Source: Treponema vincentii
GTDB taxonomy: Bacteria > Spirochaetota > Spirochaetia > Treponematales > Treponemataceae
Length of the DNA stretch: 64,000 nt
Assembly: GCF_018336815.1 (NCBI RefSeq)
Contig: NZ_CP050497.1
Location: 124,001 to 188,000 of the forward strand
Reading direction: 5' to 3'
In this document: positions 7,049-32,015 of the stretch, piece by piece
Position numbering within the stretch: the first letter of the stretch is position 1
How the letters are laid out: each line of letters begins with the position of its first letter
Notes under the pieces: model-generated
What the model saw: the letters and a program-made list of their open reading frames with translations, nothing else
What the model was told of the DNA's origin: nothing
Databases searched by the model: none
Program-made: the position numbers and the translations under genes

Positions 7049-7070
7049 ATAGACAGCGAAAATCAAGCGT

Positions 7071-7599: not shown

Positions 7600-7645
7600 C
7601 TTAAAAACTCCTTTTTGGTGTTAAGAACACCTTAAAAATAATAAC

Positions 7646-7672: not shown

Positions 7673-7709
7673 TAAAAGCCTTTATTCTTACCATAAAGGG
7701 ATTTTATAT

Positions 7710-8014: not shown

Positions 8015-8046
8015 GTCAAGAGAAAAATTCAAGGTTTCAAAATTTA

Positions 8047-8075
8047 TTGACAATTACGTACATACACTATATATT
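8047..8075 (+). promoter_or_regulatory. Consensus promoter of the brnT-brnA operon
   Basis: TTGACA (8047-8052), exactly 17 nt, then TATATT (8070-8075), placed 18 nt before the brnT ATG. This is the strongest sigma-70 match in the region. BrnA-type antitoxins repress their own promoter, so an operator is expected to overlap it. Confidence 0.8.
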
Positions 8076-8093
8076 GATGAGAGGCTGTAGGCC

Positions 8094-8441: not shown

Positions 8442-8673
8442 GGCTTGTGCAGTTCCCGACAGTCAAATTAACACAACAGATATTCCGGAATTAACTGAAG
8501 AAGATTTTGCGCGGGGACACTTTAAGTATTGGAAACCGCTTAAAAAGTCGGTAACATTCCGTATCGATTTTGATAACTTATCGTGGCTGCAAAGTAAGGG
8601 TGCAAAAGGGTATCAAAAACGAATGAACGAGGTAATACGCTGGGCACGGCAAAACGGGTGTCCGTTAGTGTGA
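8407..8673 (+). CDS. brnA: BrnA-type antitoxin
   Basis: The ATG at 8407 lies inside brnT after AGGAAAA and gives 88 residues, MTDLDEYITKCEACAVPDSQ, followed by LTEEDFARGHFKYWKPLKKS and VTFRIDFDNLSWLQSKGAKG, YQKRMNEVIRWARQNGC. The C-terminal half is the ribbon-helix-helix-like DNA-binding module of BrnA (RID-x-D...GKGYQ-RMN), and the N-terminal half wraps the toxin. It would neutralise BrnT and repress the operon. The 35-nt overlap with brnT suggests translational coupling. No terminator is evident in the 35 nt before the convergent TPR gene. Confidence 0.85.
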   Translation: MTDLDEYITKCEACAVPDSQINTTDIPELTEEDFARGHFKYWKPLKKSVTFRIDFDNLSWLQSKGAKGYQKRMNEVIRWARQNGCPLV

Positions 8674-8708
8674 GCTTCAACTATCTCGCCCGATAGCACC
8701 TAAATCTC

Positions 8709-13928: not shown

Positions 13929-13931
13929 GCC

Positions 13932-14912
13932 TTATTGTGCCTCAGCCGGTTTTGTCCAATCCGTTTGTTTGTCGGCAGTGCGGATAACCGCTTCGGTAAT
14001 ACCGCTAATGAGTTCCGAAGCCGAGCCGTCGCCGGTTTTTATCAAACACCGGTGCGCAAGGACGAGGGAGCTAAGCGTGCGGATATCTCCGTCCTCAACC
14101 CAATTGCGTCCGTTGACAAGCGCAAAGGTGCGGGCGAGGTGCAGCAAATGCAAACCGGCGCGGGGAGATGTGCCGAGCTTAAACGCAGGATGGGCACGGG
14201 TCTCTTTTCCGATTCGAGCGATTATCTTTTCGAGTACGGGATGCACAAATACCTGCCGCTGTTCTTCCCGCGAGGCCGCGATATCCTGTATGGAAACAAC
14301 CGGCGTAACCGGCTCCGGTTCTGCAGCGGGAAGGTGCGTTTGTTCATGCAGCAATTCGGTTTCCGCTTCTTCATCGGGGTAGCCAATCGACAGGCATATA
14401 CTGAACCGGTCAAGCTGAGCAGCGGGGAGCGGATAGGTACCTAAGCTTTCCACAGGATTTTGCGTAGCCGCCGTAAAAAAGTAAGGGCTTAACGGACGGG
14501 TTACCGTACCGGCGGTTACCTGCCGCTCAGCCATCGCTTCCAGCAAGGCGGACTGTACCTTCGGCGGGGTGCGGTTCAGCTCATCAGCAAGCAGGATGTC
14601 TGCGAATACCGGGCCTTCCATAAATTCAAAGGTATTCAGCCCTGCATTAAAGACTTCCACACCGGTGATGTCGTAGGGCAAAAGGTCGGGGGTGCATTGG
14701 ATACGCCTGAACCGCGCCGACTGCCCGTCTTTTTCGATGAGTGCTGCAAATGTTTTTACCAGTGTGGTTTTTCCGACGCCCGGCACATCCTCTAAAAGAA
14801 CATGCCCGCCGGTTAGATATGCGGTAATAAAAAGACGGAGAACATCCCTCTTCCCTTTAATCGCTTTTTCCAGTGCGGAAAGAAGCCGTTCCGCCGTTTT
14901 TTCGGTATTCAT
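13932..14912 (-). CDS. MoxR-family AAA+ ATPase
   Basis: The ATG at 14912 (MNTEKTAERLLSALEKAI) gives 326 residues. I prefer it over an upstream in-frame start because the -10 box lies between them. Motifs are Walker A EDVPGVGKTTLVKT, Walker B ILLADELNRTPPKVQSALLE, sensor FFTAATQNPVES and AQLDRFSICLSIGYPDE, all standard MoxR. MoxR ATPases act as chaperones for VWA partners, here the DUF58 protein 3 nt downstream. This is the first gene of a four-gene minus-strand operon. The transcript appears leaderless. Confidence 0.9.
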   Translation of the reverse strand: MNTEKTAERLLSALEKAIKGKRDVLRLFITAYLTGGHVLLEDVPGVGKTTLVKTFAALIEKDGQSARFRRIQCTPDLLPYDITGVEVFNAGLNTFEFMEGPVFADILLADELNRTPPKVQSALLEAMAERQVTAGTVTRPLSPYFFTAATQNPVESLGTYPLPAAQLDRFSICLSIGYPDEEAETELLHEQTHLPAAEPEPVTPVVSIQDIAASREEQRQVFVHPVLEKIIARIGKETRAHPAFKLGTSPRAGLHLLHLARTFALVNGRNWVEDGDIRTLSSLVLAHRCLIKTGDGSASELISGITEAVIRTADKQTDWTKPAEAQ

Positions 14913-14919
14913 AGCGGGG

Positions 14920-14948
14920 ATTATAGCATAGTATGCGGAACGCCTCAA
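14920..14948 (-). promoter_or_regulatory. Promoter of moxR, probably leaderless
   Basis: Minus strand: TTGAGG (14948-14943), 17-nt spacer, TATAAT (14925-14920), then seven bases CCCCGCT and the ATG. The TATAATnCCCGCTATGAAT string is almost identical to that at mnmG. Confidence 0.75.
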
Positions 14949-14978
14949 CTTTATAAAAAGAGGTACTGTCCTATCCTA

Positions 14979-15335
14979 TTAGTGGTGATGTTCCCCATGA
15001 TGATTGCATTGAGCGTTCGGATTATCCTGTAATGTGCCTGCTAAAAATGCTGCAACAGCTTCATCCGGAGAGCCGGTAAGGCCGGCAAGCTGATGAATTC
15101 CGGCGTTGTTCAGCGCATCAATCGCACCCTGTCCGCGGTTTCCTAAGATGAGCGTTTCAACTCCAAGGCTTTTAAGATAGGTTGCCAAATCGTGATGACC
15201 GAAACCGCCGTTATCGATTACTTCAGTTTTCGTTACTTTTCCGGCTTCAATTGTATAAACCTTAAAATGCTCTGTTTTTCCAAAATGCTGAAAAATTGAA
15301 TTCGTTAAAATATCATAAGTCGCTGCGATTTTCAT
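14979..15335 (-). CDS. NifX/NafY-family (dinitrogenase FeMo-cofactor-type) protein
   Basis: The 118-residue protein starts MKIAATYDILTNSIFQHFGK and contains FKVYTIEAGKVTKTEVID, GHHDLATYLKSLGVETLILG and GNRGQGAIDALNNAGI, the standard ribonuclease-H-like fold of the NifX/NifB C-terminal family. The C-terminus is metal-binding in look (CNHHGEHHH). There are no nif genes nearby. In non-diazotrophs such proteins are common and may handle iron-sulfur or other metal clusters; function here is inferred only at family level. The gene is monocistronic, with its own promoter (15343-15371). Confidence 0.82.
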   Translation of the reverse strand: MKIAATYDILTNSIFQHFGKTEHFKVYTIEAGKVTKTEVIDNGGFGHHDLATYLKSLGVETLILGNRGQGAIDALNNAGIHQLAGLTGSPDEAVAAFLAGTLQDNPNAQCNHHGEHHH

Positions 15336-15342
15336 ATTTTGA

Positions 15343-15371
15343 ATTATATCATAATTATTAAGAGCTGTCTA
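15343..15371 (-). promoter_or_regulatory. Promoter of the NifX-like gene, probably leaderless
   Basis: Minus strand: TAGACA (15371-15366), 17-nt spacer, TATAAT (15348-15343), seven bases, ATG. No purine-rich ribosome site is present. Confidence 0.75.
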
Positions 15372-15375
15372 AAGG

Positions 15376-15481
15376 TTCCTTAAAATGCAACAGTCGGACA
15401 AAATATCAATTTTGGAGACTGTTGCATTTGTGCGCGGTAGCGCACATATAATCCGCAAGTTTGCACAAAGCAAACTTGACG
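15376..15481. repeat. Multi-hairpin dispersed repeat, copy A
   Basis: About 106 bp containing three successive hairpins: TGCAACAG...CTGTTGCA, TGCGCG...CGCA, and GCAAGTTTGC...GCAAACTTG. Copy B at 53401-53507 has the same order and about 85% identity. A further imperfect hairpin (CCGCGCTA/TAGCGG) follows. It encodes no protein and has no terminal repeats typical of an insertion sequence. Confidence 0.8.
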
Positions 15482-15573
15482 TGTTTTTCAGCCGCGCTAT
15501 TTTAGCGGATGAAAATAAACGTTGGTATTACGGCTCAATATAATCTAAATCTAAGAGCGGCACTTATTACAAA

Positions 15574-17286
15574 TTATTCATTAGCCACTTTCCAGTCTTT
15601 TATCGTTCTCGTCTTTTCATCAAAGGAACTTCCAATGAGCACTATTTTCTTCCCACTCGCCATGTACTTTGCGGCATAGTCTTTCTCTTTTATTTGCGCG
15701 ATTGCATCTTCCGCCGTGCCGTTACCGGAGAGTTTAAACTCGAAGAGGTAAACAGTATCAGCTGTTTTGAGTACGCAATCAGCGCGCCCTGTTGCGCAAT
15801 GCACCTCTGTCTGTACAAACTGCCCCATCAGAGCAAAGATGAGGTACACCGCTGTTTGATAGTTTTGTTCCCGCAGCTTGCTCACAAATGTACGTCCTTG
15901 TACATTTGTGAGCTGCAAGTTTGCATGGCAAACTTGTTTCTGCATGGAACCACCGCCATCCATGGCGGTTCTGATTGTGAGGTTTTCTTCTCTAAAATCA
16001 TCATACGGAATACCGGCGATAATCGACTGCATCCGCTCCATAAAACTATTCACATCACCCTTGCGGATGTCTTGTACAAACCGTCCAACCCATACCCCTG
16101 TTTGGCCGAACGGTACATCAGAATATGCAGGTAAAAGGTTATGCAAAAAGCCATACCGAACCTCATCATTCGGAAAGCCCAGCCGGTAGAGCCTCAGATC
16201 TTTTATATATTCCTTGATAGTGAGGTAGCCTGCCTGAAATAAAATCGGTAACGTATCTTGAGCAATAGCCCGATACGTTTGTAGCCCATCTTCATCCAGC
16301 TCAACATTTCCATCGAGGTCGGGAATAAAGTAGTGCGCCTCTTTTAAGAAGTTGACCAAAAACGTCGGCGTTCCCGTACTGAACCAGTAGCTTTTGATTT
16401 CTTTATCATCAAAGGCATTGAGAATACTATAAGGATTATACATTCCTTCCCCTGCCGGATGGAAGAGATAGCCGTCATACCATTGCTTTAAGGCAGCAAG
16501 CGTCTGCGGATAGTTAAGATTTTGCTTTTCTGCAAGCGCTTGTATTTCGTGTTGAAAATTTGCTTCCAGCTCTTTTTGACTAATGCCGCAAATACCTGCA
16601 TACGTTTCATGTATGCTAATATCTTTCAAATTATTCAAATCACTGAAAATACTGATCTTGCTGAACTTTGTAACGCCGGTGAGAAAAGCAAAGCGGATAT
16701 ATTCATCGCAGGTTTTTATGACAGAGTAAAAAGCTTTAAGCGCATTACGGTATTGTTCATTCAGCGCTTCATTACCCCCCATCGTTTGCAACAGGGGCTT
16801 ATCGTATTCGTCTACAAGGATTACTACCTGCTTGCCGGTTTGCTTAAAAAGAGCTGCGATAAGCAATCTAAACCGATCTTCCGGTGCTTCTGCTGTTTTT
16901 GGTATAGCGTACAGGGCTTCCCATTCGTTCAGATGGAGATTGAGAATATCTACAAGTGCCTGCTCATTTATATAATTTTTTGTATTAAAATCCAGATAGA
17001 GTACCGGATATTCCAGCCACGCAGCTCGGTTTTCTTGTACCGCTTGCTCCTCTTCGGCTTTTTCAAGATATAAACCCTTGAACAGCTCTTTCTGTCCAAG
17101 GAAATATGCTGCTAATGTTGAAAGGAAAAGGCTCTTACCAAACCGGCGCGGACGGCTGAGAAAATAAACACGACCGCCTTGTACTAATCGGAAAAGATAG
17201 TCAGTTTTATCTACATAGAGATAATGATCAGTCCGTAATACCTTAAAACTCTGTACGCCGATCGGCAGTTTGCGTGTAATGTTCAT
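15574..17286 (-). CDS. AAA-ATPase-like / PD-(D/E)XK nuclease-like protein (DUF1703)
   Basis: The 570-residue protein begins with the AAA-ATPase-like domain: LPIGVQSFKVLRTDHYLYVD, Walker A-type SRPRRFGKSLFLSTLAAYF (about 44-62) and Walker B-type VVILVDEYDKPLL (about 154-166). The C-terminal domain has the PD-(D/E)XK pattern GRADCVLKTADTVYLFEFKL. Such genes are multi-copy in many host-associated bacteria; the role is unproven. Residues about 439-472 are encoded by a palindromic element inserted in frame (15881-15970), between the conserved segments ENLTI and EQNYQTAVYLIF. Residue numbers are estimates. The promoter at 17293-17321 suggests a leaderless mRNA. Confidence 0.85.
   Translation of the reverse strand: MNITRKLPIGVQSFKVLRTDHYLYVDKTDYLFRLVQGGRVYFLSRPRRFGKSLFLSTLAAYFLGQKELFKGLYLEKAEEEQAVQENRAAWLEYPVLYLDFNTKNYINEQALVDILNLHLNEWEALYAIPKTAEAPEDRFRLLIAALFKQTGKQVVILVDEYDKPLLQTMGGNEALNEQYRNALKAFYSVIKTCDEYIRFAFLTGVTKFSKISIFSDLNNLKDISIHETYAGICGISQKELEANFQHEIQALAEKQNLNYPQTLAALKQWYDGYLFHPAGEGMYNPYSILNAFDDKEIKSYWFSTGTPTFLVNFLKEAHYFIPDLDGNVELDEDGLQTYRAIAQDTLPILFQAGYLTIKEYIKDLRLYRLGFPNDEVRYGFLHNLLPAYSDVPFGQTGVWVGRFVQDIRKGDVNSFMERMQSIIAGIPYDDFREENLTIRTAMDGGGSMQKQVCHANLQLTNVQGRTFVSKLREQNYQTAVYLIFALMGQFVQTEVHCATGRADCVLKTADTVYLFEFKLSGNGTAEDAIAQIKEKDYAAKYMASGKKIVLIGSSFDEKTRTIKDWKVANE
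15881..15970. repeat. Palindromic element inserted in frame in the DUF1703 gene
   Basis: Three hairpins in 90 bp: CTCACAAATGTAC / GTACATTTGTGAG (15881-15893, 15900-15912, perfect 13 bp), CAAGTTTGC / GCAAACTTG (15916-15924, 15928-15936, perfect 9 bp), and ACCGCCAT / ATGGCGGT (15952-15969). The second hairpin matches the third hairpin of repeats A and B. The frame stays open through all of them. Confidence 0.8.
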
Positions 17287-17292
17287 AATGAT

Positions 17293-17321
17293 AGTATAGC
17301 AGGGTTCAATACTTTCTGCAA
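17293..17321 (-). promoter_or_regulatory. Promoter of the DUF1703 gene, probably leaderless
   Basis: Minus strand: TTGCAG (17321-17316), 17-nt spacer, TATACT (17298-17293), six bases, ATG at 17286. Confidence 0.7.
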
Positions 17322-17613
17322 TTTAACCGCGTCAAAATCGGCTATTCGTTTGCCAAATAAGAGGAACCCAGTTGTTTTTTTAAGCAGGTAAAAACTACGA
17401 AAAGAGAGAGTGCGACGGTGGGGAAGATGAGGAACATCATAGGATGTAAAGAGGCGGTGGTTTTACATACCCATTACTCCGCACAAATCAAAAATATGCT
17501 ACAATCGTTTTATAATATGTCAACTCTTTCTCATTCTGACACTAATAGTTATGATGGAGCATCTTTGATCAATATCCTTAAATTTTTTATAGATGCCCAA
17601 AGTGAGGTTTTCA
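17322..17613. other. Intergenic region upstream of the CARF-like gene
   Basis: No convincing gene. An 80-codon frame crosses it but has no ribosome site and overlaps the start of the next gene. A TATAAT at 17511-17516 might be a -10 box for the downstream pair, but the matching -35 is poor. Confidence 0.4.
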
Positions 17614-18255
17614 ATGAAAAAGATTATATTTGTAGATATTCCTATGAAAAAAATGAATGACACTACAGATACCCAATGTTATGCGGAAACGGGAAATGCC
17701 GGTTGCCGCTATACCGGTAAGGTGGTGTTTCCTGTCAATGCCGTGCTTGCAGAAAAATTGCAGAAAGGAGATCAGGTAAAAGCGGTGCTCCTCACAACCA
17801 TTACAGGCAAAGATCATTCAATAGAAAATGTCGAGCTTTTTCAGCAGGAACTGAATTCGATTAATGCGGCTATCGGTGCGCATATTGAATATGAGCAACT
17901 TGCAACGGATTTTGTTGAATCAAAAGCAAGCCATGAAGCACGGCTCCGTAAAATGCTGCCGTTTATAGAAGAAGGCGCTGAACTCTATGCGGATATTACA
18001 TTCGGACAAAAAACAATCCCCATGGTTTTAATGTGTGCCTTTCATTTTGCGGAAAAGTTTTTTGATGCAGATGTAAAAAAAATCATATACGGCAAAGTTG
18101 AGTTTATCAAACATGCCGACGGAATAGCCTATCCTGAAAATCCTGAACTGTATGATGTTACGCCGCTCTATTATTTAAATAATCTCATGGGGACAATGGA
18201 AGCTCCAAACGGAACGGAAGCATTAAAAGCCTTGGATGCCTTTTTTGCACTGTAA
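17614..18255 (+). CDS. CARF-like (TM1812/Csx-type) nucleotide-sensor protein
   Basis: The ATG at 17614, with GAGG six bases before it, gives 213 residues beginning MKKIIFVDIPMKKM. The key part is YADITFGQKTIPMVLMCAFH (residues about 126-145) followed by ADVKKIIYGKVEF. This matches the D-x-T-x-G-x-K/R-x-x-P loop and following helix of CARF-fold proteins that bind cyclic oligonucleotides in type III CRISPR systems. There is no effector domain after it. No CRISPR array or cas gene is present in the window. It pairs with the sigma-like gene 21 nt downstream, which could be its output. The family call is from pattern memory and needs a profile search. Confidence 0.6.
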   Translation: MKKIIFVDIPMKKMNDTTDTQCYAETGNAGCRYTGKVVFPVNAVLAEKLQKGDQVKAVLLTTITGKDHSIENVELFQQELNSINAAIGAHIEYEQLATDFVESKASHEARLRKMLPFIEEGAELYADITFGQKTIPMVLMCAFHFAEKFFDADVKKIIYGKVEFIKHADGIAYPENPELYDVTPLYYLNNLMGTMEAPNGTEALKALDAFFAL

Positions 18256-18276
18256 TCGTAATAAGCGGAGAGAGTG

Positions 18277-19209
18277 ATGGACAAAAAGCAGCAGGAAGCA
18301 AAGATTATCAGAATTGCAACGGAACTGTTTCCGTTTGTTCAACAGAAGAATACTGCCTGTATGGAGTTTCTTACTTTGCGGACAAAACTTACCGATGCCG
18401 TATGGCGGTGGACGTTACTGACATTCAATCCGAAAAAAATTGAAAATGCCGCGATTGAAATAATGGAATGTGTAAACCGCAGTGTGCTCAGCTATGAAGG
18501 AACTGCCGAACACTATATTAACTATCTGGCACACTCTTTAAAAAAAGAAATAAACCGCGCAAATATAAAACTGCATACTTTTCACTCTGAAATCATTCCG
18601 CTGCCGGAGAACAAACGGCGAAAATGGAATCAGCTGTGCGCCGCTGCTGCACACTATGGGAAAGATATAGAACGTGCTGAAACACAAGCATGGCTTGCAA
18701 AGCGAACCGGTTATCCGGTGAATGAAATAGCCCAGCTCATGGAGTGGAAGGTTCAGACCGCTGTACAATCGGAACATATCGATTCCGAAAGCAGCAAGGG
18801 ATATTCTTTGTTTGATTCTGCGGCAGTATGTACTCATAGCGGTTACAAAGCAGTCGATGCCTGCTTAATAGAACAAGACCATATTGAGCGCAGCCTACAG
18901 CTCATTGATGCAGCATTTGCCGCATCGCAAGACCGCACAAAGCCGTATCTTTCCGCATTGCTGACCCATCGTGTGTTATGCGAACTGGATGCGGCAAAAG
19001 TAGACAGTACCGTAATAGCTGTAGTCTTGCGCAATGTACGCTTTTCAGATACGGAACATGGACGCACGCTCATCCGGCTATTTTTTGAAGCGAAAAGCTT
19101 CCCCACGCAAGAAGATATTGCCAAACAGTTCGGCAAAGATAAAACCGATGCAAGTAGAACGATACATAAATTTTTACAGAAAGTACGGCAAAGAGTATCA
19201 ATTTTTTGA
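18277..19209 (+). CDS. Sigma-factor-like regulatory protein
   Basis: The ATG at 18277 follows GGAGAGAG and gives 310 residues. The N-terminal part has HYINYLAHSLKKEINRANIK, like a sigma region 2 helix. The middle has AWLAKRTGYPVNEIAQLMEW, a helix-turn-helix-like segment. The C-terminus is TQEDIAKQFGKDKTDASRTI, followed by HKFLQKVRQRV, which closely fits sigma region 4 or a related helix-turn-helix. I infer a DNA-binding transcription factor, possibly an alternative sigma factor. It is 21 nt downstream of the CARF-like gene and upstream of the CBASS promoter. The pairing suggests nucleotide sensing coupled to transcription. Confidence 0.5.
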   Translation: MDKKQQEAKIIRIATELFPFVQQKNTACMEFLTLRTKLTDAVWRWTLLTFNPKKIENAAIEIMECVNRSVLSYEGTAEHYINYLAHSLKKEINRANIKLHTFHSEIIPLPENKRRKWNQLCAAAAHYGKDIERAETQAWLAKRTGYPVNEIAQLMEWKVQTAVQSEHIDSESSKGYSLFDSAAVCTHSGYKAVDACLIEQDHIERSLQLIDAAFAASQDRTKPYLSALLTHRVLCELDAAKVDSTVIAVVLRNVRFSDTEHGRTLIRLFFEAKSFPTQEDIAKQFGKDKTDASRTIHKFLQKVRQRVSIF

Positions 19210-19240
19210 TATAATGGACTATATAAAATATGATGAAAAT

Positions 19241-19269
19241 TTGCCAATATTATAAAATTTCATTATATT
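19241..19269 (+). promoter_or_regulatory. Promoter of the CBASS operon
   Basis: TTGCCA (19241-19246), 17-nt spacer, TATATT (19264-19269), with the patatin ATG at 19297 preceded by TTGAGGAG. This gives a short leader with a normal ribosome site, unlike the leaderless genes nearby. Confidence 0.7.
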
Positions 19270-19296
19270 AAGTAGATGCAAAATTGAGGAGTATGC

Positions 19297-20292
19297 ATGA
19301 AGCGTTGTGATAGAATTGATAAGCATAAACCTTTTAATATACTTTCCATAGACGGAGGAGGCATTTTAGGCTTATATTCTGCTGAGCTATTAACTCTCAT
19401 TGAAAAAGAACTATTTAAAAACGGTTCAACATTTTCTAGTAAATTTAATTTGATAGCAGGTACTTCAACCGGCGGTATTATCGCATTAGCACTTGCATTA
19501 GGGTGTTTTCCAGCTCAAATCTCTGAACTTTATAAACTGCATGGAGAAAAAATATTTCATAAATCTTATTTTAACTATCTTTTTAAAAATTGGATATTCA
19601 CAAATAGATACTCTTCTCTTTCGTTACAAAATGCTCTTATCGAATTTTTCGGTGATAAAACAGTCAAGGACTGTAAAACAAATATTTGCATTCCCGCAAT
19701 TGATGTATCTAACTGTCAGCCCATTATTTTTAAAACAAATCATAACGGAAATTTGACACGGGACATTGATGTAAAATTAACAGATATTGCTCTTGCAACG
19801 TCTGCAGCACCTACCTATTTCCCATTGCATAGTTTCGGCTATTATCGAGGCTTGGCTGATGGCGGTTTATGGCAAAATAATCCTGCTCTCTTTGCGATAA
19901 TAGAAGCGTGTACTTATTTTGTAGGCGAGGAAAAAGAGTATGATAGTATAAATATACTTTCGATTGGAAACCCTCTATCTGCAATCAAAGAAACCGTTTC
20001 GGTAGAAACAAGAAAATCAGGTTTAATAAAATGGGCATCAAAAATGGTGACCATGCCGATGAAAATATCTTCTTTTGGCGTACATAATATTATCAATTTT
20101 CTTTCGAGAAATGAAGCTCTTTCAATTCATAAATATTTACGGATTGAAAGTCAAAATTTACCGGATAAACCGGAATGTAAAAAATTATCTTTAGATTCTG
20201 CTAATCCGAAAACGTACAAATTGTTATCGGAATTAAGTTTTAATGATTTCACCAAAAATAAAGCCGATATAATTAAATTTTTTAAGGAGTAG
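19297..20292 (+). CDS. capV: Patatin-like phospholipase, CapV-type CBASS effector
   Basis: The 331-residue protein has all patatin motifs: oxyanion loop IDGGGILGLYSAELL (residues 18-32), nucleophile elbow AGTSTGG (Ser57), and catalytic Asp in LADGGLWQNNP (Asp188). CapV effectors degrade membrane phospholipids when bound by 3',3'-cGAMP from a DncV-like cyclase, killing or arresting infected cells. The cyclase gene starts 4 nt after this stop. The gene is AT-rich compared with the neighbouring chromosome, as are the next two, consistent with acquisition by transfer. Both catalytic residues are present, so the effector looks intact. Confidence 0.88.
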   Translation: MKRCDRIDKHKPFNILSIDGGGILGLYSAELLTLIEKELFKNGSTFSSKFNLIAGTSTGGIIALALALGCFPAQISELYKLHGEKIFHKSYFNYLFKNWIFTNRYSSLSLQNALIEFFGDKTVKDCKTNICIPAIDVSNCQPIIFKTNHNGNLTRDIDVKLTDIALATSAAPTYFPLHSFGYYRGLADGGLWQNNPALFAIIEACTYFVGEEKEYDSINILSIGNPLSAIKETVSVETRKSGLIKWASKMVTMPMKISSFGVHNIINFLSRNEALSIHKYLRIESQNLPDKPECKKLSLDSANPKTYKLLSELSFNDFTKNKADIIKFFKE

Positions 20293-20295
20293 TGT

Positions 20296-21224
20296 ATGGC
20301 AAATTTGCATCAAGCATTTATTGATTTTAATGAAAAGATAAAACTAACCGAATTTAAAAAAGCTGATATTCGGCGTAGGCGTGATGTTGTTCGCGATAAA
20401 ATACGGACATTTTTTAAAGATGAATTGAAATACAACCAACCTAAATTTCAATCACAAGGTTCTTTTACCATAAATACTGCCTTAAATCCAATCAATGGAA
20501 ATGAGGTTGATATCGATGACGGAATTTACTTGCAACACGTTTCGCAAAATGAAAATGAATGGCCTTCTCCTAAAGAAGCGCATAAGTTCATTGTTGATGC
20601 TCTCGATGATCATACAAAAGATGGTTGTGAAGATAAAAACTCTTGCGTAAGGCTTACTATGCGCATGATTTTCACATAGACTTTCCTATTTATATTATGA
20701 AAAATGGACACGCAAGGTTGGCTAATACAAAAACCAATAGATGGATTGAGAGTGATTCAAAAGATTTTAAAGATTGGTTTTATAACAATAGAAAAAATGA
20801 GCAAACAAACCGTATTATACGTTACTTAAAAGCATGGCGAGATTTTTCTAAAACAGATTTTACCAGTATAGAATTAACAATATTAGTTGTAAATAATTTT
20901 TACGGTAATGATCGTGATGATGTGGTATTGTATCAAACATTGGAAAAATGTGTGACATTTCTTAATACAAACCGAGGAATAAAGAAACCTGTTTCCCCAT
21001 ACGAAGATTTATGGGAGAATTATTCTGAATCAAAGAAAAATACTTTAATACAAAAACTTTCTGATCTTATGAATGATATAGCAACAGCAATCAATAACCA
21101 ATCCGATAATCGATCATCAATTATCATGAGGGAACAGTTTGGAGATAGGTTCCCTAAGCTGAATGACAAAACTACCACTCCTATTAAAGAATTTAGTATA
21201 GGCGTAAAACCGTGGCAATTATAG
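20296..21224 (+). CDS. dncV: DncV-like CD-NTase (CBASS cyclase), split by a frameshift
   Basis: The N-terminal 128 residues contain the nucleotidyltransferase signature FQSQGSF (Gly55-Ser56) and NEVDIDDGIYL (Asp72, Asp74). The third acidic residue lies in FHIDFPIYI in the second frame, which runs to 21224. One base is missing near 20655-20665; adding a T gives CVRLTYAHDFHIDF and a protein of about 309 residues. Unlike the other splits in this window, the break is not at an obvious long homopolymer, so real inactivation is possible. DncV-like enzymes make 3',3'-cGAMP. It lies between the patatin effector and the E2-like gene. Confidence 0.82.
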
Positions 21225-21853
21225 ACGAAAGTATTGATTTTATACATCAGACATTTCCTGAAGTTGCCATACGGCAAGAAGCCTCATCTGTAATTTTTGA
21301 AGGACGTTTTATTTTACGCGGTAGATATAAGGACTTTATTATGGAAGCTGCTCCGCGATTAACGCTAGTGATGGATAATAATTATCCGCATATATTACCG
21401 AAAGTTTTTGATATTGATGACATCATTGTGTATGATCACAAATTTCAAGATAAATCGCTCTGTCTTGCAACTCCCATAGATATTAGACTTAGATTACTAT
21501 CTTCAAAAAATATTTCTGATTACATTGAGGGCTTTTTAATCCCCTATTTTATTTCTTATAAATATTGGGAACAATCCGGTCAAAAAATTGATATTTATGG
21601 AGACCGTAGCCACGGTAAAAAAGGCATTATTGAATCTCTCGCTGATTTTTTTAATCTTGAGTGTAATGATGAAATTACAATACATTTATTGTTTTCATGG
21701 GCTGCTAAGATAAACAAATTTAGAAGATTGGTTCCCAAAGAAAATCAAGACAATTTCATAAAGAAATACAGTAATCAAATCTCAAAATTACGGAAATTAG
21801 GAATTTTTGAATTGAGGAAATATTTTAAATACATAAAAATGTCAACTGTGTGA
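21212..21853 (+). CDS. E2-like ubiquitin-conjugating protein of short type II CBASS
   Basis: A GTG at 21212 overlaps the cyclase stop by 13 nt and gives 213 residues. Residues 26-90 look like a UBC fold: FEGRFILRGRYKDFIMEAAP, then LTLVMDNNYPHILPKVF, and VYDHKFQDKSLCLATPID with the candidate catalytic Cys84. The C-terminal 100 residues are helical and basic. In full type II CBASS an E1-E2 fusion (Cap2) conjugates the cyclase C-terminus; short systems have only the E2. No E1 or JAB protease gene follows, so this fits the short form. The E2 assignment rests on pattern, not on a search. Confidence 0.65.
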   Translation: MAIIDESIDFIHQTFPEVAIRQEASSVIFEGRFILRGRYKDFIMEAAPRLTLVMDNNYPHILPKVFDIDDIIVYDHKFQDKSLCLATPIDIRLRLLSSKNISDYIEGFLIPYFISYKYWEQSGQKIDIYGDRSHGKKGIIESLADFFNLECNDEITIHLLFSWAAKINKFRRLVPKENQDNFIKKYSNQISKLRKLGIFELRKYFKYIKMSTV

Positions 21854-21901
21854 TAGAATGCACTATTATTATACATATAACATAAGCATAAGGAGTTTGT
21901 T

Positions 21902-24290
21902 ATGAGTTATACAAAAGAAGAAGTGATTGAAAAGATCATTGCCGTAGTAAAAAACTTTGACGGTAAAAGGAATCCCTCTGTAATTATGCAACAATTAGGC
22001 TGGAATAAAGACACCGTTAATAATATGTGCAGTTTATTCAATGTCAGTAAATTCAGTGAAATTTTATCTCAGATACCGCAGATACAAATAGAGAAAAATA
22101 AGCATGGCACCACATACGTGCAGCTTGTGCAGAATACCGAATACACACAATTAAATGCCAAGCAGGAGGAACTACAGATGGCAGAAACAACAAAGCATCA
22201 CGATAGGATATCAGCGCTTAAAAATGCGCTCAGCGAAGGTCTATACGAAAAAGATGAAGCGCTGCGCCTTGCACTTTTAGCAGCAATTGCAGGGGAAAGT
22301 ATTTTCTTTTTGGGTGCTCCCGGGTGTGCCAAGAGTATGCTTGCACGGCGTATTGCCAAGGCATTTAAAACAGACGGCGATGGAAGTGTTCAGTATTTTG
22401 AAACACTTTTAAATCAATTTTCTACACCGGAAGATGTGTTCGGCAATATTTCTCTGAAAGGCTTGAACGGCGAAGGTGAAAGCGGCAAAGAAGAATACCG
22501 CCGCCTTACGGAAAATATGCTGCCGGAAGCGGATATCGCCTTTCTCGATGAAATTTGGAAGGCAAGCCCTGCAATCCTCAACACACTCCTTACCATCATA
22601 AACGAGCGGAAATTTCATAACGGCAGTAAAGTACAGGACGTACCTCTAAAAGCCTTACTAGCCGCATCAAACGAATTGCCGGCAAAAAAACCGCGGGCTT
22701 GAAGCCTTGTACGACCGGTTCATTATTCGTTTGCCTATCGGTTTTATTCAAAACGAAGATAGCTTTTTTGATATGGTAGAAGGCTCGAGTTCTGAATTTG
22801 AACTTTCCGGTGAGATTAAAAAATTACAGATTTCCAACGAGGACTTAAAAAAATGGAAAACACAGATTGACGCAGTGCAGCTTTCAGAAGAAGCAAGAGC
22901 GGTTATTTCCGCAATCCGTAAAGAACTGACGGCGCAAAATGAGACATTGAGCGAAGAAGAAAAAGCTGCCGGTGAATCATTTGCAATCGGCGACCGCCGT
23001 TGGAAAAAAATAGTGCGCATCTTAAAAACATCCGCATTTTTGAACGACCGTACCGAAGTAGATTTAATGGACTGTCAGCTGATTGAATACTGCATTTGGA
23101 ACACCGAAAAACAGCAGAAAAAGGCACGCCAAATCGTAGAGACGTGCATTCAGCAAAACGGGCTGGATTGCGATACTGCGATAGATGACATCAACGACCG
23201 GATTGAAGAGTTTACGGCAAAAGTTGAGCAAGACTGGTTTAAAACAGTAAAAGTAGCTGAAAAAACACGAACAGACCCTGCAACTGATAAAATTGTCACA
23301 GTCGATGATCAAGAATGCTATAAATGTACTCGCGATGGCACCAACGAAACATGGTATGTTTCTGTAGCTAGAGGGAAACATGATCCATGGAATGATTATC
23401 ATGATATTTATGATTCGAATAAAAACCATTATACAAGCTCCTCCTTTCGGAAATCTGGTAGTAAAATTTCTTGTTATCATAACTTTACTGTAAAAAAGAA
23501 TCCTGAACAAATTGTAGTTATACAACCTGCAACAAGCTATCGTAAACAAAAAGAATATTCCGATATAGCGCAGGAAACGTTACAAAAGAATTTTGACAAA
23601 GCGTATTACAAGCCGATTGTAGATGAAATCCATACTGAAATTAAGGCGCTGAAAGACAAAAAAGAAGCGGATGCGATACCGTTCAAGGCAAATTTATTTG
23701 CAAATCAATCCTATAATAAAAGTCTTACTGCAAAACTGGATGAGGCAATCCGGCAATTTGAAGATGCGGAAATCGCACTTGCCAAGCAGCATGATAGATA
23801 TTTCAATGCTGAACTCGATACTGATTTTTCAGAAGGAGATGTCATTCTCAAAGACGGAACTGCTTTTTCTTCGGAAGAAATTAAAAATATGACAGAAGAA
23901 CAGAAAAAAAATGTGATTGCAGTTGTGTGCATTGCTGACGATAAAACCTTTGCCCTTGGTATAAGCGAAAAAAAATTGACATGGAATGCACTCAAAGAAT
24001 ATGCCCTTCATTACGGCGATGCCTTACCGAAAGACTATGCAGCAAATTGGATAGTTCCCGATAAAGCTCAACTGTATGCGATATGGGAAAATAGAGATAA
24101 ACTAAATACGTCCTTCGAAGCCCTTGGTATTGAGGAGGCGATGCTTACTCCGCAAGAATACTGGTCGGCATCCGAAAACGGAGAAGCGGCGGCCTTCTAT
24201 CAACTTTTTGATGAGAACGGTTTGCAAGACCATACAACCAAAGATCATGTATACGCAGTCCGCACTATCCGTGAATGGAGCAAAATATAG
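21902..24290 (+). CDS. RavA/MoxR-type AAA+ ATPase with C-terminal DUF1566-like domain, frameshifted
   Basis: After a helical N-terminal region (residues 1-95) comes a MoxR AAA+ core: Walker [15 protein letters not shown] (about 137-150), Walker [21 protein letters not shown], and sensor [11 protein letters not shown]. Six As instead of seven at 22684-22690 restore [21 protein letters not shown] and give about 796 residues. Residues about 680-796 are unlike Rav[39 protein letters not shown] and [10 protein letters not shown] resemble DUF1566/Lcl-type domains. An odd Cys/Tyr-rich stretch ([19 protein letters not shown]) lies before it. It is followed by the HEPN-like and VWA genes, so it is the ATPase of a MoxR-VWA system. 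Confidence 0.78.
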
Positions 24291-24298
24291 TGGGTGAT

Positions 24299-24601
24299 AT
24301 GAATACATCCCGTGAAGCCCTTACCGCATTGCAGCAAAAGTATTCCGGCGGCATGCCCAATGTCTACCGGCTTTCCGATGAACAGAAAGCATGGCTTGAA
24401 CTGAAAATACAGATGCTTGCAGAAGGGCTTCAACCACTGCAGCCGATTATGGAATTGCATAAAATCCGCAACCGGCTTGTGCATGCAACGGAAGATATTC
24501 CCGATAAGGAATTGCAAAAGATGATTTCATTTGTATTTGACAATATGGAAGAGATTAGAGCTTTAATAGAAACAGGATGCACTGATGACGAGAAAAGATA
24601 G
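24299..24601 (+). CDS. Small HEPN-like protein of the MoxR-VWA module
   Basis: From the ATG at 24299 there are 100 residues, mostly helical: MNTSREALTALQQKYSGGMP, WLELKIQMLAEGLQPL, then IRNRLVHATEDIPD. RNRLVH fits R-x4-H, the catalytic signature of HEPN ribonucleases (Arg57, His62). The whole protein is homologous to residues 10-110 of the next gene, which also has this motif, so it is a duplication or a split domain. It lies 8 nt after the ATPase stop and overlaps the VWA gene by 17 nt. RNase activity is an inference from the motif only. An alternative in-frame start lies 24 nt upstream. Confidence 0.6.
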   Translation: MNTSREALTALQQKYSGGMPNVYRLSDEQKAWLELKIQMLAEGLQPLQPIMELHKIRNRLVHATEDIPDKELQKMISFVFDNMEEIRALIETGCTDDEKR

Positions 24602-26813
24602 AAACTCAAGAAAATATAGCAGGAAAGCATTGCGCCCTATTGAAGAAATGAGTGAAAAATACCCTTCCGGTATTTCCGATGTTACAGCAATCAATGAAGA
24701 AGCGCGTGCATGGCTGCAAATAAAAATGCAGCAGCTACGGGAATGTTTAACAAAAGTATGGTTTTCTTCAAAACCTCATTGGTGGGAACCGCTCCGTCTA
24801 ACACGGAATAAAACCGCACACCAAACGGAAGATTTAAGCGATAATGCATTTTCCAACCTGTGTAGTACACTATTTTCCAACATCGGTAACATAAAACAAA
24901 ATTTAAACGCAAACATTCAACGCTATAAGCAGCAATCAAAGAAAAAGCGGCAGTTTGAAAAAAATGCTGCCCCTGAATCTGCATTCGGTTCAAATCGGGA
25001 ACGGAAGCAGTTGGTTGATGCGATCGAAGATGCCATACAGCCTGTTGAGCCGGAAGACATCCCCATTGCTTTTCCGCAGAATACATTTGCGCAGGTCGCG
25101 CAGCATACGCTTTCCGAAATTCTGAATACGCAAGACGTACAAGAGTATATGCAAACCCACGAAGGGCTTTCAGAAAATATTCAAACGGATCTTTTGGAAT
25201 GGCTGCAAAAAACACACGGCACATTGGAAAAAGAAAATCCGTTTTTCGATGAAGCAATCTTTGTTACACAGCAGAAAAAGCAGGCTGCAGAAGAAATTGC
25301 AGCCGATCTTTCTGCGGAAAAGTCAAAAATACAGTATCACTATAAACGTCTTCCGTCAGTTAGCGATTCAAAACGTGAAACTATTCAGGAAAGTACGCTG
25401 GACTTTGATTTTTACCGCAAAGCATTTGCCGAGCAAAAACACATCACCGATAGTGCAGCAGACGATACCGCGAAAACAGTTCCGACAGAGGAAGCACAAA
25501 CGTCTTCAGGAGCAAGTATACGGGTAGACGATATGCAAGCAGAAAACACTCCCGGAAAAAATGAGCAAGTAAATACTACCCATGCAGAAACCGTAATACA
25601 GAAAACGAAAAATAATGAAAAAAATACGCTTCAATGGGAATCGCCGGAAAAACTTGAAGCGCTGCGCAGAAACTTTATTGCCGATATGGAAAAAAATCTC
25701 ATAGAACGCAAAACAAAGTGGGAGCAGGAACGGATCGATGCTATGCGTAAGCAGTTTTTGGAAGAGCTGTATAAAAAAATACAAAACTTTATGCGGCTTG
25801 AAAAACTACTTACGCCGTTCACTAAAAATTTTGGAAGGCTCTGGGATTTATCCAAGCATCCCTTTGAAACAAGCGGGTTTGAAATTCTTGATACCTTTGC
25901 CAAACTTCTGGAACAAGATGAATCGCTGCAAGAACTCGCTGACCTTCTCGGCAGGCAAAGCCGCACACAAGCGGTGTTTGAAAAAGAGCTGCGGGATAAA
26001 ATCGTCATAACAACAGAGTGGCATCCGCAACCTGCATACCGCGGAGAGATAAACGGACTCAAGTATTCAAACGATATTGCAGCGGTTCTTCCCTGTGAAC
26101 TTGCTATGTTGAAAAATCCTGCGGCAAAAAAACTCTTTCAGCTGAAATTTGCGCAAAAACAACTCCTGTCATTTGAGTATCAAAATGAGCAAGAGGAATT
26201 AAAAGAAAGTATCGAGCAAGAAGAGGTAACGATGGAAAAGCAAGAACCTAAGGGACCGATTATCATCTGTGTTGACACGAGCGGCTCTATGCACGGCACT
26301 CCGGAGAATATTGCAAAAACGGTAGCATTTGCACTGGCAAAGATTGCCGCAGAACAGGAACGGCTTTGCTATATCATCTCGTTTTCCACAGATATTGAAA
26401 CACTGGAAGTAAAACCAAATGAGGATATGGAATTGACAAATGCGGACGGAGGCAACTACCTGCAAAAACTGGTACGTTTTTTGCGTATGTCGTTTAACGG
26501 CGGAACCGATGCGGAACCCGCGCTGCGGAAAGCGCTTAACATGCTTGCAGGCAGTGATACTGCAACCGGATATAAAAATGCCGATGTACTGATGATCTCG
26601 GACTTCGTAATGGGCAATCTTTCAGATGATCTTGTTACGGCTATCGAACAGGAAAAAGAAAAGGACACCGGCTTTTACAGCCTTGTTATCGGAGAAAGCG
26701 GCAACAAAAATACCATCGCCTGTTTTAATCACAACTGGCTGTACGACACCAATGATACCCGCGCGTCCCGGCATCTTGTTGAGCAGCTGCATGAACTGAA
26801 AACACGGAAATAA
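24585..26813 (+). CDS. VWA-domain protein (ViaA-like) with N-terminal HEPN-like domain
   Basis: The 742-residue protein starts 17 nt before the previous stop. Residues 15-105 repeat the small upstream protein and carry RNKTAH (Arg74-x4-His79). A long charged helical region follows. Residues about 555-740 form a von Willebrand A domain: IIICVDTSGSMHGTPENIAK with the MIDAS DxSxS (Asp564), MSFNGGTDAEPALRKAL, and VLMISDFVM. Metal-binding residues are intact. VWA proteins of this type pair with RavA-like ATPases, here two genes upstream. A HEPN-like N-terminus on a ViaA-type protein is unusual and suggests a conflict or stress system rather than a simple chaperone. Confidence 0.75.
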   Translation: MTRKDRNSRKYSRKALRPIEEMSEKYPSGISDVTAINEEARAWLQIKMQQLRECLTKVWFSSKPHWWEPLRLTRNKTAHQTEDLSDNAFSNLCSTLFSNIGNIKQNLNANIQRYKQQSKKKRQFEKNAAPESAFGSNRERKQLVDAIEDAIQPVEPEDIPIAFPQNTFAQVAQHTLSEILNTQDVQEYMQTHEGLSENIQTDLLEWLQKTHGTLEKENPFFDEAIFVTQQKKQAAEEIAADLSAEKSKIQYHYKRLPSVSDSKRETIQESTLDFDFYRKAFAEQKHITDSAADDTAKTVPTEEAQTSSGASIRVDDMQAENTPGKNEQVNTTHAETVIQKTKNNEKNTLQWESPEKLEALRRNFIADMEKNLIERKTKWEQERIDAMRKQFLEELYKKIQNFMRLEKLLTPFTKNFGRLWDLSKHPFETSGFEILDTFAKLLEQDESLQELADLLGRQSRTQAVFEKELRDKIVITTEWHPQPAYRGEINGLKYSNDIAAVLPCELAMLKNPAAKKLFQLKFAQKQLLSFEYQNEQEELKESIEQEEVTMEKQEPKGPIIICVDTSGSMHGTPENIAKTVAFALAKIAAEQERLCYIISFSTDIETLEVKPNEDMELTNADGGNYLQKLVRFLRMSFNGGTDAEPALRKALNMLAGSDTATGYKNADVLMISDFVMGNLSDDLVTAIEQEKEKDTGFYSLVIGESGNKNTIACFNHNWLYDTNDTRASRHLVEQLHELKTRK

Positions 26814-29413: not shown

Positions 29414-30034
29414 TTATTGAGGATTTTGTTCACTGATTATGCCATCAGCTAGCGTTGTATAATATTCAAGATAAGCATCTATCCCCATAAAATATTGTGC
29501 CACTTTATTGGTTTCAGCCTTAATTGTAGCTATATTAAAATTCTGCACTTGAGAAAATGATTTTTCGTGCTTCCGGTTAGTTGGATATCTAAAGGTCTGA
29601 CCGACCAGATCAATAGCATGAAATTCAAGTATTATTTTTTTTATTTCATCGTCAAAATGTCCTTCTGAAATGCATGTTAAAACAGCTATTAATCGTCCTA
29701 CTAATATTTCTAAACTATGAATCGATTCCAATTCCTTTTTCGGTTTAGTATATTTTTGTAGTTCATATCCAATAATTTCTGTTTTTTCATAAAACGATTC
29801 TGCATAAATAATCAATTGCTTTAATGTTAGTTCAATAAAATGCCGGTACATAAAACAAATTGGATAAAATAAACCATCTCGTTTGTCTTTATCGCTCTCC
29901 AATGCATCCTTAACTAAAATATCACCCGCACTCCAATACGCAACAGCATATGAATAATCGCGAATGAAAGAAGCTCCTACTGTCGCATTAACAGTTCTAA
30001 GGAATTCCGGTGATTGAGCGAATATGTTCTTCAT
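29414..30034 (-). CDS. Unknown protein of the R-M cassette
   Basis: The ATG at 30034 has AGAGG five bases upstream and gives 206 residues; an in-frame ATG 18 nt earlier is less likely. The protein is mainly helical: FIRDYSYAVAYWSAGDILVK, FYPICFMYRHFIELTLKQLI, and SLEILVGRLIAVLTCISEGH. The RHFIELTLK helix recalls helical proteins of abortive-infection or HEPN type, but no R-x4-H motif is clear. It starts 34 nt after the methyltransferase stop and shares the AT-rich composition of the R-M genes, so it probably travels with them. I do not recognise the family. Confidence 0.6.
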   Translation of the reverse strand: MKNIFAQSPEFLRTVNATVGASFIRDYSYAVAYWSAGDILVKDALESDKDKRDGLFYPICFMYRHFIELTLKQLIIYAESFYEKTEIIGYELQKYTKPKKELESIHSLEILVGRLIAVLTCISEGHFDDEIKKIILEFHAIDLVGQTFRYPTNRKHEKSFSQVQNFNIATIKAETNKVAQYFMGIDAYLEYYTTLADGIISEQNPQ

Positions 30035-30067
30035 TTTTACCTCTACAACCATGAACCATATTTATTG

Positions 30068-31222
30068 TTATTGGTTAGCAACCGATAATTCATTTTTTAT
30101 TACCGGCTTTAGTGACAAATAATCGTATTCCATCGATGAGAACAATTCATTTTGACAATAAGCTAATTTTTTTTTCACAATTTTTATTGCTTCGTTTGAT
30201 TTATCAATTCCAATCCACTGGCGCCCCAATTCTTGAGCCGCTATCAATGTAGTACCTGACCCGCAAAAGAAATCCAATACGATACTATCCGGATTGGAAG
30301 ATGCTTGAATCAATAATTTAAGCAATGCAAGATTTTTTTCTGTCGGATATACGGGATACTGATAATCTTTGAAATCCAAAATATCCTGTATTTTTTTCCC
30401 CTTTTGTTCATCTGCATAAATAATTTTGCGCGGTACTCCATTTGCCGACCATTCAATTAAACCTTGTTTGTCTAATTCTTCTAGTTCTTTTGGATCGGAA
30501 CGCCAATGCCGTCCTGCAGGTGGTTTTATTCCATTAAATTCACCACCGGTTACTCCACTTTTTGTTTCTCCGGGGGCATGAAGCGGAATTGTTGTATACA
30601 AGCGTCCATTTTTATCTACTTTTTTATATAATCTTTTTATATCGTCTTCTGAAAACGGTTCACAAGGTTCGTGCCAGATAGCATTTTTTGATTTTGTATA
30701 AAATAAGATTAAATCTTTAACGTTTCCATAAGCTCGTCTTGTAAAATTTTTGGGATTGCATTTTATGCGCGTAATATCATTTTTAAAATTTTCAATACCG
30801 AAAATTTCATCTAAAATAATTTTAACATAATGCCCAATTTTATAATCGATATGCAGATAAAAAGAACCTTTTTCAGAAAGTAATTCATAGGCCAGTATCA
30901 GTCGTTCACGTAAAAATTCTATAAAGGATTCTCCGATCAATATATCTTGATAGGCAATTTTATCCTTTTTACTTGAACTAATTGTACTTACTCTTTCATC
31001 CCCTATAGTAAAAGTACTATTTGTTGCGAATGGTGGATCGATATAGATAAAATCAATTTTTCCTTTTAAAGAATATTCATGCAATAATGACTGCATTGAT
31101 GAAAAATTATCGCCTTCAATTAATAAGTTCCTTTTGCTATTCCATTTTTTCGAGAACGAATATGGATTAGATATATTTAAAATCTCACTCCTATTTTTCT
31201 TTCCCGGATAAAATAATTCCAT
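30068..31222 (-). CDS. Type II DNA methyltransferase (beta-class, N6-A or N4-C)
   Basis: The 384-residue enzyme has the catalytic motif IDFIYIDPPFAT near residue 55-66 and the SAM-binding motif VLDFFCGSGTTLIAAQELG near residue 320, followed by QWIGIDKS. Motif IV before motif I defines the beta class. DPPF is compatible with N6-adenine or N4-cytosine methylation. A variable region between them holds the target recognition domain (GRHWRSDPKELEELDKQG). The gene starts 10 nt after the endonuclease stop. The target sequence cannot be read from the protein. Confidence 0.87.
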   Translation of the reverse strand: MELFYPGKKNRSEILNISNPYSFSKKWNSKRNLLIEGDNFSSMQSLLHEYSLKGKIDFIYIDPPFATNSTFTIGDERVSTISSSKKDKIAYQDILIGESFIEFLRERLILAYELLSEKGSFYLHIDYKIGHYVKIILDEIFGIENFKNDITRIKCNPKNFTRRAYGNVKDLILFYTKSKNAIWHEPCEPFSEDDIKRLYKKVDKNGRLYTTIPLHAPGETKSGVTGGEFNGIKPPAGRHWRSDPKELEELDKQGLIEWSANGVPRKIIYADEQKGKKIQDILDFKDYQYPVYPTEKNLALLKLLIQASSNPDSIVLDFFCGSGTTLIAAQELGRQWIGIDKSNEAIKIVKKKLAYCQNELFSSMEYDYLSLKPVIKNELSVANQ

Positions 31223-31232
31223 ATTACTAACC

Positions 31233-32015
31233 CTATATTGAATATAAAAAATCTCTTAGTAATAAAGCACTTAGTATATTTTCATTAGAATATGTTTCTG
31301 TAATATCGGTATACATCTTATTATTGCCTTTTATATATAATACTCCGTCAAGTATTGCTATTTTTATAGCATTAACATTCGGTGTCATAATCGTAGAAAT
31401 GGCATCTGCAAATTGTGCGTTTTGATGTCCTCCGAAATCCGTTAAAAATTTTGCTTCGCCGATAACATATTTACCGTTGAAACGGGCTACAAAATCAAGC
31501 CCTTTATTTCTCTCATAACCTAAATATTTTTTTGCCCACAACTGCATTTCGGCATCACTAGCATTTAAAATTGCATTTTCTGTAGTATTCATAAATTCAT
31601 TTAAACCGACAGGCACTATTCCTAGGGCTTTTGAATTTACCCAACGTTTAAATAATGGACCAATCTGTCTGTTTGTTTCTTTAGGTTCGGAACATTTTTC
31701 AAATATTTTATCCAATCCCATCTCATATAAACGGCCGCATAATCTATTTATCGTTTCAGGATTCCGTTCTATCGCATTATGATCTCTTTTTAAAAAAGCA
31801 ACATAAGAATCTTTTATCGGAAATAAGTCCAGATACAATAAATGAGTTACCAATGAAATATTATCCATTGCATTGAAAGCATCTGTGACGGCCTCCCAAC
31901 GATTTTCATCTATATCGCGGATTCCATCTGGAATTGTAGGATATACTCGAAATAAATGATCGAGATAATTTCTTTGGTTTGCGTATTCAATACTTAACTG
32001 TGTCCAATGATTCAC
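31233..32015 (-). CDS. Type II restriction endonuclease (PD-(D/E)XK)
   Basis: A GTG start at 32015 with GAGGAAC upstream gives 260 residues. The core GLDFVARFNGKYVIGEAKFL has the Asp, then Glu-x-Lys spacing of PD-(D/E)XK nucleases, followed by TDFGGHQNAQFADAISTI. The helical N-terminus includes IERNPETINRLCGRLYEMGL and PKETNRQIGPLFKRWVNSK. It is upstream of, and probably co-transcribed with, the methyltransferase and the unknown third gene. Cassette base composition is clearly AT-rich versus the flanking hydrolase and U32 genes, supporting horizontal gain. Specificity unknown. Confidence 0.77.
   Translation of the reverse strand: MNHWTQLSIEYANQRNYLDHLFRVYPTIPDGIRDIDENRWEAVTDAFNAMDNISLVTHLLYLDLFPIKDSYVAFLKRDHNAIERNPETINRLCGRLYEMGLDKIFEKCSEPKETNRQIGPLFKRWVNSKALGIVPVGLNEFMNTTENAILNASDAEMQLWAKKYLGYERNKGLDFVARFNGKYVIGEAKFLTDFGGHQNAQFADAISTIMTPNVNAIKIAILDGVLYIKGNNKMYTDITETYSNENILSALLLRDFLYSI

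Follow-up and report, generated by a model that had tools for sequence, protein, structure and literature searches.

HEPN-like domains in a RavA/ViaA-type ATPase–VWA module of Treponema vincentii: a candidate conflict system that begins with CARF and helix-turn-helix genes

Introduction

What is the role of a small protein with the motif of HEPN ribonucleases that is encoded between a RavA-like AAA+ ATPase of the MoxR type and a VWA protein which itself starts with a second copy of the same domain? The question is raised by a locus in a 64,000-nucleotide stretch of Treponema vincentii DNA (contig NZ_CP050497.1, positions 124,001 to 188,000), referred to here as the window and corresponding to G000:C1:124001-188000 of a genome of 2.71 Mb (G000 in our numbering). 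An initial annotation of this locus, made from the sequence, inferred that the ATPase and the VWA protein form an NTP-dependent switch that controls the small protein as a HEPN toxin. In the sections of PMC7159879 available to us, the manner in which MoxR–vWA conflict systems drive their effectors appears as mostly conjecture. In the present case a defined catalytic domain, fused to the VWA protein, would act as the effector and have a partly degenerate paralogue as its natural partner, which would make gating by the ATPase directly testable. We favour, with moderate confidence, the view that the locus is a mobile conflict module, probably directed against phages and built on a RavA/ViaA-type ATPase–VWA pair, in which the VWA-borne HEPN domain would be an RNase effector, the small protein its partner and the MoxR ATPase the switch, with a CARF protein and a helix-turn-helix (HTH) protein probably setting its expression.

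Results and Discussion

Two HEPN-related domains

The open reading frames (ORFs) of the small protein and the VWA protein are as described in the initial annotation, and the proposed homology between them is clear: residues 4-87 of the former align with residues 12-104 of the latter at 31% identity (E 8e-13), and a profile-to-profile comparison gives an E-value of 9.2e-22. Both proteins contain R-N-x-x-x-H, located at Arg57/His62 and Arg74/His79, respectively. The available text of PMC3710099 defines the HEPN motif as Rx4-6H with a polar residue after the Arg and lists HEPN families in which it is partly lost. R74, N75 and H79 are the sole invariant columns in an alignment of 17 chosen VWA N termini, and over approximately 300 residues of 26 VWA sequences only these three and E223 are invariant (both sets are without the motif-lacking relatives L104 and L107, which are included in the larger count below); the motif therefore stands above chance. 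An AlphaFold model of the small protein (pLDDT 80.4) has HEPN structures as its top matches, namely rows 1-11 in VIA-align and the top eight in Foldseek, with the proviso that helical bundles score by chance, and its closest folds are HepT-type toxins. The string R57-N-R-L-V-H62 aligns with, and is identical to, R102-H107 of the solved HEPN toxin 7ae9. The two window proteins score below the curated HEPN cut-offs, and the distant VWA relatives L101 and L102 score above the Pfam HepT-like cut-off. HEPN folds were absent from the good structural matches of a model of VWA residues 1-300, a PDB search with L102 returned nothing useful, and a profile search of the PDB based on the full VWA alignment gave no HEPN match and a weak fragment of ViaA. 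Thus the HEPN relationship put forward earlier is borne out by the 7ae9 string, the small-protein model and the L101 and L102 scores, and both domains look HEPN-related; the predicted four-helix HEPN bundle was obtained with the small protein, and the model of the VWA N terminus did not provide it.

The VWA-borne copy as the probable enzyme

To compare the two copies, 20 small proteins and 36 VWA N termini were aligned, excluding same-genome duplicates under other locus numbers; the Fibrobacter metagenome-assembled genome (MAG) copies L153 and L154 are near-identical. R-[N/D]-x3-H is kept in 34 of the 36 VWA N termini, the exceptions being the degenerate L104 and L107, and in 12 of the 20 small proteins. 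In the other eight the Arg is replaced, by His in L039, L040, L041 and L099, by Gly in L093 and by Ala in L094, and in the Fibrobacter proteins L153 and L154 the whole motif is gone (string GKRLSY) while the VWA protein of the same operon retains it. In sets of less than 90% identity the counts are 27/29 for the VWA copy and 6/11 for the small copy (Fisher p 0.011, a value that shared ancestry makes indicative). A tree unites the 20 small proteins in a single clade (0.975), within which the motif was lost four separate times, each time with a VWA partner that retains it; for one of these losses, L093, the VWA gene lies in two frames and no MoxR gene was seen. The conservation of the Arg and His supposed earlier thus holds for the VWA copy and not for the small one. 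In an 18-row alignment of small proteins without those of Fibrobacter, the most constant features are E-x-K-A-W, an Ile preceding the motif, R59, H62, D-x-E and one Asn, which we read as a putative binding surface.

Judged from these alignments, the VWA copy is likely the enzyme, and because the motif was lost in about four lineages the small protein is more likely a partner than a toxin. The earlier proposal that the small protein is itself the catalytic RNase toxin under ATPase/VWA control draws on the intact R-N-R-L-V-H of the window copy, identical to that of the 7ae9 toxin; however, given the eight replacements and the Fibrobacter genes that remain beside HEPN–VWA without a motif, we no longer take it as the most likely explanation and consider it unlikely.

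The ATPase, the ViaA-like body and a possible switch

The ATPase upstream is RavA-like as proposed (Table 1), with Walker A GAPGCAKS and Walker B AFLDEI in its N-terminal piece; the gene is, however, split in two frames, broken at 22702/22707 close to a short A run. It is in a single frame in L033 and others. The CBASS (cyclic-oligonucleotide-based antiphage signalling system) cyclase of the window is also split over two frames, around 20640-20690, and the related cyclase of genome G130 (L231:6978-7908) is broken too, at a different place. Intact copies exist, and the breaks in the window could be either assembly errors or decay. Simple patterns missed Walker A in L036, L042-L044, L097 and L101-L103, and the exact metal ion-dependent adhesion site (MIDAS) string DTSGS, at residue 564 of the window VWA protein, was missed in L033, L102 and L103.

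In the HEPN–VWA protein, residues ~8-113 are HEPN-like and the match to ViaA (3.4e-75) spans residues 355-723 only, so that the HEPN-like part is additional to ViaA, as had been stated. As in Escherichia coli RavA-ViaA, a RavA-type MoxR AAA+ protein adjoins a ViaA-like VWA protein. However, the window VWA protein has ~350 extra N-terminal residues with the HEPN part first, the MoxR protein has an exchangeable insert and an Lcl_C-like C terminus, and CARF, HTH and small HEPN genes adjoin. As the scores lie under the curated equivalog cut-offs (RavA, 207.8 and 73.7 bits for the two pieces versus 681; ViaA, 254.1 versus 500), the window proteins are relatives and not orthologues of RavA and ViaA.

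The window and L032 share one type of insert after the MoxR lid and L033 has a different type, the remainder of the protein being nearly identical, from which we infer that the insert is an exchanged recognition domain; the LARA domain of RavA sits at a comparable place. The window C-terminal piece gave no Lcl_C match, and the likeness rests on homologues, among them a free-standing domain in L043 (3.1e-8, 34.3 bits against a cut-off of 34.9). Hypervariation of this lectin-like C terminus by a diversity-generating retroelement was considered and set aside, as the domain is conserved and it is the central insert that varies; reverse transcriptase was not searched for. Variants were also seen among relatives. 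A MoxR protein with an apparently doubled insert (L036:6527-8830) has a CBM48/AMPK1_CBM-like C terminus in place of the lectin-like one, and a second MoxR-lid/Lcl_C-like ORF lies immediately 3' of the HEPN–VWA gene in L097 (7769-9208). In L103 (2265-3890) the order is CARF, a 292 aa protein, a MoxR-like protein and a HEPN protein; a VWA MIDAS motif was not found in the last of these, and HEPN thus seems to persist without VWA.

A switch of the kind proposed initially, in which the ATPase/VWA pair controls HEPN at the expense of NTP, is plausible. The VWA protein would be the effector carrier, its N-terminal HEPN domain likely cutting RNA, and the small protein, a duplicated HEPN copy which has lost strict catalytic conservation, probably pairs with this domain and either restrains it or completes a dimer. 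The MoxR protein, acting via the VWA MIDAS, its exchangeable insert and its lectin-like C terminus, probably senses the target and may then remodel the complex of HEPN–VWA and small protein so that the RNase is turned on.

A rather unlikely alternative is that the HEPN-like domains have no nuclease activity and serve as helical adaptors or in dimerization, and that the module is a protein-assembly chaperone in the manner of RavA-ViaA. This would be consistent with the strong ViaA match of the VWA body, the tolerance of motif loss in the small copy, the two degenerate VWA copies and the relatives L036, L105 and L109, from which the HEPN part is absent. It accords less well with the invariance of R-N-x3-H among the 17 VWA N termini, which fits catalysis, or with the context of the module, that is, its patchy distribution, plasmid location and nearby CARF, CBASS and restriction–modification (R-M) genes.

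Extent and distribution of the unit

The three genes named initially do recur together, yet the unit is larger and begins two genes earlier, with genes for CARF and HTH proteins. These precede MoxR, small and HEPN–VWA genes in 13 of the 20 small-gene loci (in L092 the CARF gene runs into the end of the HTH gene). Among the other seven, L037 and L090 have the HTH gene at the contig start, the contigs of L099, L106 and L154 end short of the CARF position, and L093 and L153 have room available and neither gene. A further 16 HEPN–VWA loci are without a small gene, three of them with CARF (L042, where it is convergent, L097 and L103); the contig ends upstream in L101 and within the VWA gene in L108, L104 and L107 are the two with a degenerate motif, and L101, L102, L104, L169 and L171 were assigned by alignment and not by the hidden Markov model scan.

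Of the closest named relatives found, most are treponemes. VWA-profile matches occur in 37 of 274 family genomes, an initial single-sequence scan of the genome contigs having found nothing, and the complete five-gene order extends as far as L100, from another family of the class. HEPN–VWA proteins with RNxxxH also occur in Fibrobacter and Bacteroidales MAGs, with no CARF seen within the stretch available. A complete and unbroken set is found on plasmid pTS2 of T. saccharophilum JCM 32279 (NZ_AP025290.1; L228:8711-11031), where both genes begin too late in the public annotation, the VWA gene at 9274 (9001 in our reading) and the small gene at 8816 (8711 in our reading). The late VWA start removes the HEPN motif and may explain why the domain has gone unnoticed.

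The CARF–HTH pair as a portable cassette

The window CARF protein gave no Pfam match at 0.05, and its counterpart in the T. saccharophilum plasmid set carries the annotation 'TM1812 family CRISPR-associated protein'. In most module loci the next gene encodes a relative of the HTH protein, which we read as possibly sigma-like. CARF-profile matches were obtained in 58 of the 274 genomes of the family, the matches in four being weak and partial. Among 20 further CARF loci (L128-L147), an HTH relative follows in 14, a count that includes weak cases in L140 and L145, an arrangement in L137 like the fused L092, and L142, where a VWA remnant is present as well; in five loci no HTH relative was seen, and L146 stops at the contig end. 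When ten downstream proteins from five of these loci were scanned, the four large ones matched Mokosh MkoA (L132, L134, L135 and L145) and three had no match at 1e-8; other matches were to CARF4-PDDEXK and, more weakly, PD-T4-6 (both L135), and to DolB/PDC-M37B (L140, with the gene on the opposite strand). As the pair stands before Mokosh-like and other defence genes too, it looks like a portable front cassette. The idea of CARF as a dedicated HEPN–VWA partner is weakened by this and by the difference in the number of genomes (58 versus 37). The pair probably acts as a switch of expression under the control of a signal and serves other defence modules as well, and CARF control of HEPN–VWA might run via expression, be direct or not occur at all.

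Type III RAMP genes were found in just one (G071) of the 22 genomes with HEPN–VWA or its kin, several of which are incomplete drafts, and G000 had no RAMP match. RAMP was used instead of the Cas10 palm, an uninformative marker that also matched E. coli; its match in G000 lies in ORF 47246-48205, presumably a GGDEF protein. Positions 1-20000 of the window contain no direct repeat family of at least 24 bases, as judged by a CRISPR repeat scan. In genomes that mostly lack type III CRISPR, the position of CARF–HTH before HEPN–VWA and other defence modules suggests that CARF signalling also operates outside CRISPR. Separately, L141 holds a type III locus with CARF. It is possible, and we suggest it tentatively, that the whole forms a CRISPR-independent CARF circuit, in which CARF and the HTH/sigma-like protein would read a nucleotide signal, which an adjacent CBASS cyclase may supply in some genomes, and arm a separate HEPN RNase gated by the AAA+/VWA pair and a pseudo-HEPN protein, the cassette being portable before unrelated treponeme defence modules.

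CBASS genes between HTH and MoxR

In most small-gene loci the HTH and MoxR genes are adjacent, and genes intervene in L034, L035, L037, L090 and the window, where they encode CBASS; among the loci seen, only the window genome has CBASS in this slot, which looks like a cargo site since its contents differ between relatives. The window-type cyclase was matched in eight of the 274 genomes, in six at 46% identity or more (its own included), the two weakest being G148 and G330. It lies beside a MoxR–VWA pair in G000, G354 and G128, the VWA protein in G128 lacking the HEPN part, and not in G130, G223 and G275, and for this reason CBASS was rejected as a constant partner. Patatin–cyclase–E2 CBASS genes beside MoxR–VWA were found in the window (19297-21853), L036 and L094.

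Comparison with known systems

The MoxR–vWA core has been proposed to set an effector threshold in the ternary systems treated in the available part of PMC7159879, and the window ATPase likewise matches Pfam bpMoxR; 'HEPN' occurs there once, in the reference list. VMAP and iSTAND were absent among the Pfam matches of the scanned module genes, apart from weak VMAP-M14 matches in two members (best 0.043). Effectors are typically C-terminal to vWA in the systems covered by the accessible text of PMC8195603, whereas here HEPN is N-terminal.

The small protein shares its fold and the R-N-R-L-V-H string with MntA-HepT, a type VII toxin–antitoxin system, in which the tyrosine two residues after the His has a role in AMPylation. 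Here, however, HEPN is also fused to a VWA protein, the neighbours of the HEPN genes are MoxR and VWA, and the H-x-Y tyrosine of 7ae9 is Thr in both window proteins. A toxin–antitoxin pair, with HEPN–VWA or the small protein neutralized by its neighbour and only a loose association with MoxR and CARF, would suit the HepT-type folds and the 17-base overlap of the small and HEPN–VWA genes, but with that Thr, no MNT antitoxin among the scanned neighbours and the small gene absent from 16 HEPN–VWA loci we regard it as very unlikely.

Csm6/Csx1 of type III CRISPR systems likewise combine a CARF sensor with a HEPN domain within one gene set; unlike these, the CARF and HEPN domains here are on separate proteins with the ATPase–VWA pair between, and RAMP genes are rare as described above. 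CARF is also linked to MoxR–vWA in the vWA–MoxR–VMAP sets of Altae-Tran et al. (2023; PMC10910872), which the part available describes near type III loci and with VMAP; HEPN–VWA is unmentioned in that part, which was not searched for HEPN itself. Neither MoxR nor vWA gave a match in the accessible text of PMC3710099 and PMC4012209. The suspicion that the arrangement may be undescribed has so far held up, as no description was found in the literature searched, PMC12839542 included, which lay mostly outside subscription journals, and the CARF classification of Makarova et al. may describe the order. The module looks like an undescribed variant of MoxR–vWA conflict systems, related to yet outside RavA-ViaA, MntA-HepT and Csm6/Csx1.

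The locus and its surroundings

The module and its cargo form a single run of co-directional genes (17593-26813, +; Table 1). An alternative ATG at 24275 would lengthen the small protein to 108 aa.

Table 1. Genes of the module in the window, with the matches on which their assignment is based
Feature	Position	Strand	Evidence
CARF (TM1812/CARF2-type) stand-alone sensor, 220 aa	17593..18255	+	PADLOC CARF2--CARF 7.9e-87, Csx1 1.3e-48
HTH protein, 311 aa, possibly sigma-70-like	18274..19209	+	Weak Pfam HTH/Sigma70_r4 matches, E ~0.015
CBASS patatin phospholipase effector	19297..20292	+	NCBIfam CBASS_lipase 4.5e-82
DncV-like CD-NTase, N-terminal piece	20296..20679	+	Pfam DncV-like_NTFase 2.5e-16
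DncV-like CD-NTase, C-terminal piece	20643..21224	+	NCBIfam cGAS 2.3e-32
CBASS E2-like protein	21212..21853	+	PADLOC E2 5.4e-28
RavA-like MoxR AAA+ ATPase, N-terminal piece	21902..22702	+	bpMoxR 1.8e-39, RavA 3.5e-61
MoxR ATPase, C-terminal piece: lid, exchangeable insert, Lcl_C/DUF1566-like C-terminal domain	22707..24290	+	AAA_lid_8 1.4e-20
Small HEPN-like protein, 100 aa	24299..24601	+	R57-N-R-L-V-H62 at 24467-24484
HEPN–VWA protein, 742 aa	24585..26813	+	R74-N-K-T-A-H79 at 24804-24821

On the opposite strand, a Type II R-M pair lies at 30068-32015, beside a 212-aa protein (29414-30052, -) with no Pfam (E up to 1) or PADLOC family match. An AAA-ATPase_like/PDDEXK_9 gene (15574-17286, -) adjoins the module and has a 79% counterpart beside the module in L032. 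A separate cluster at 9086-14948 (-) comprises a second MoxR gene (13932-14948), a DUF58-like stretch (12506-13928, -) that may be split as well, and transglutaminase and TPR genes.
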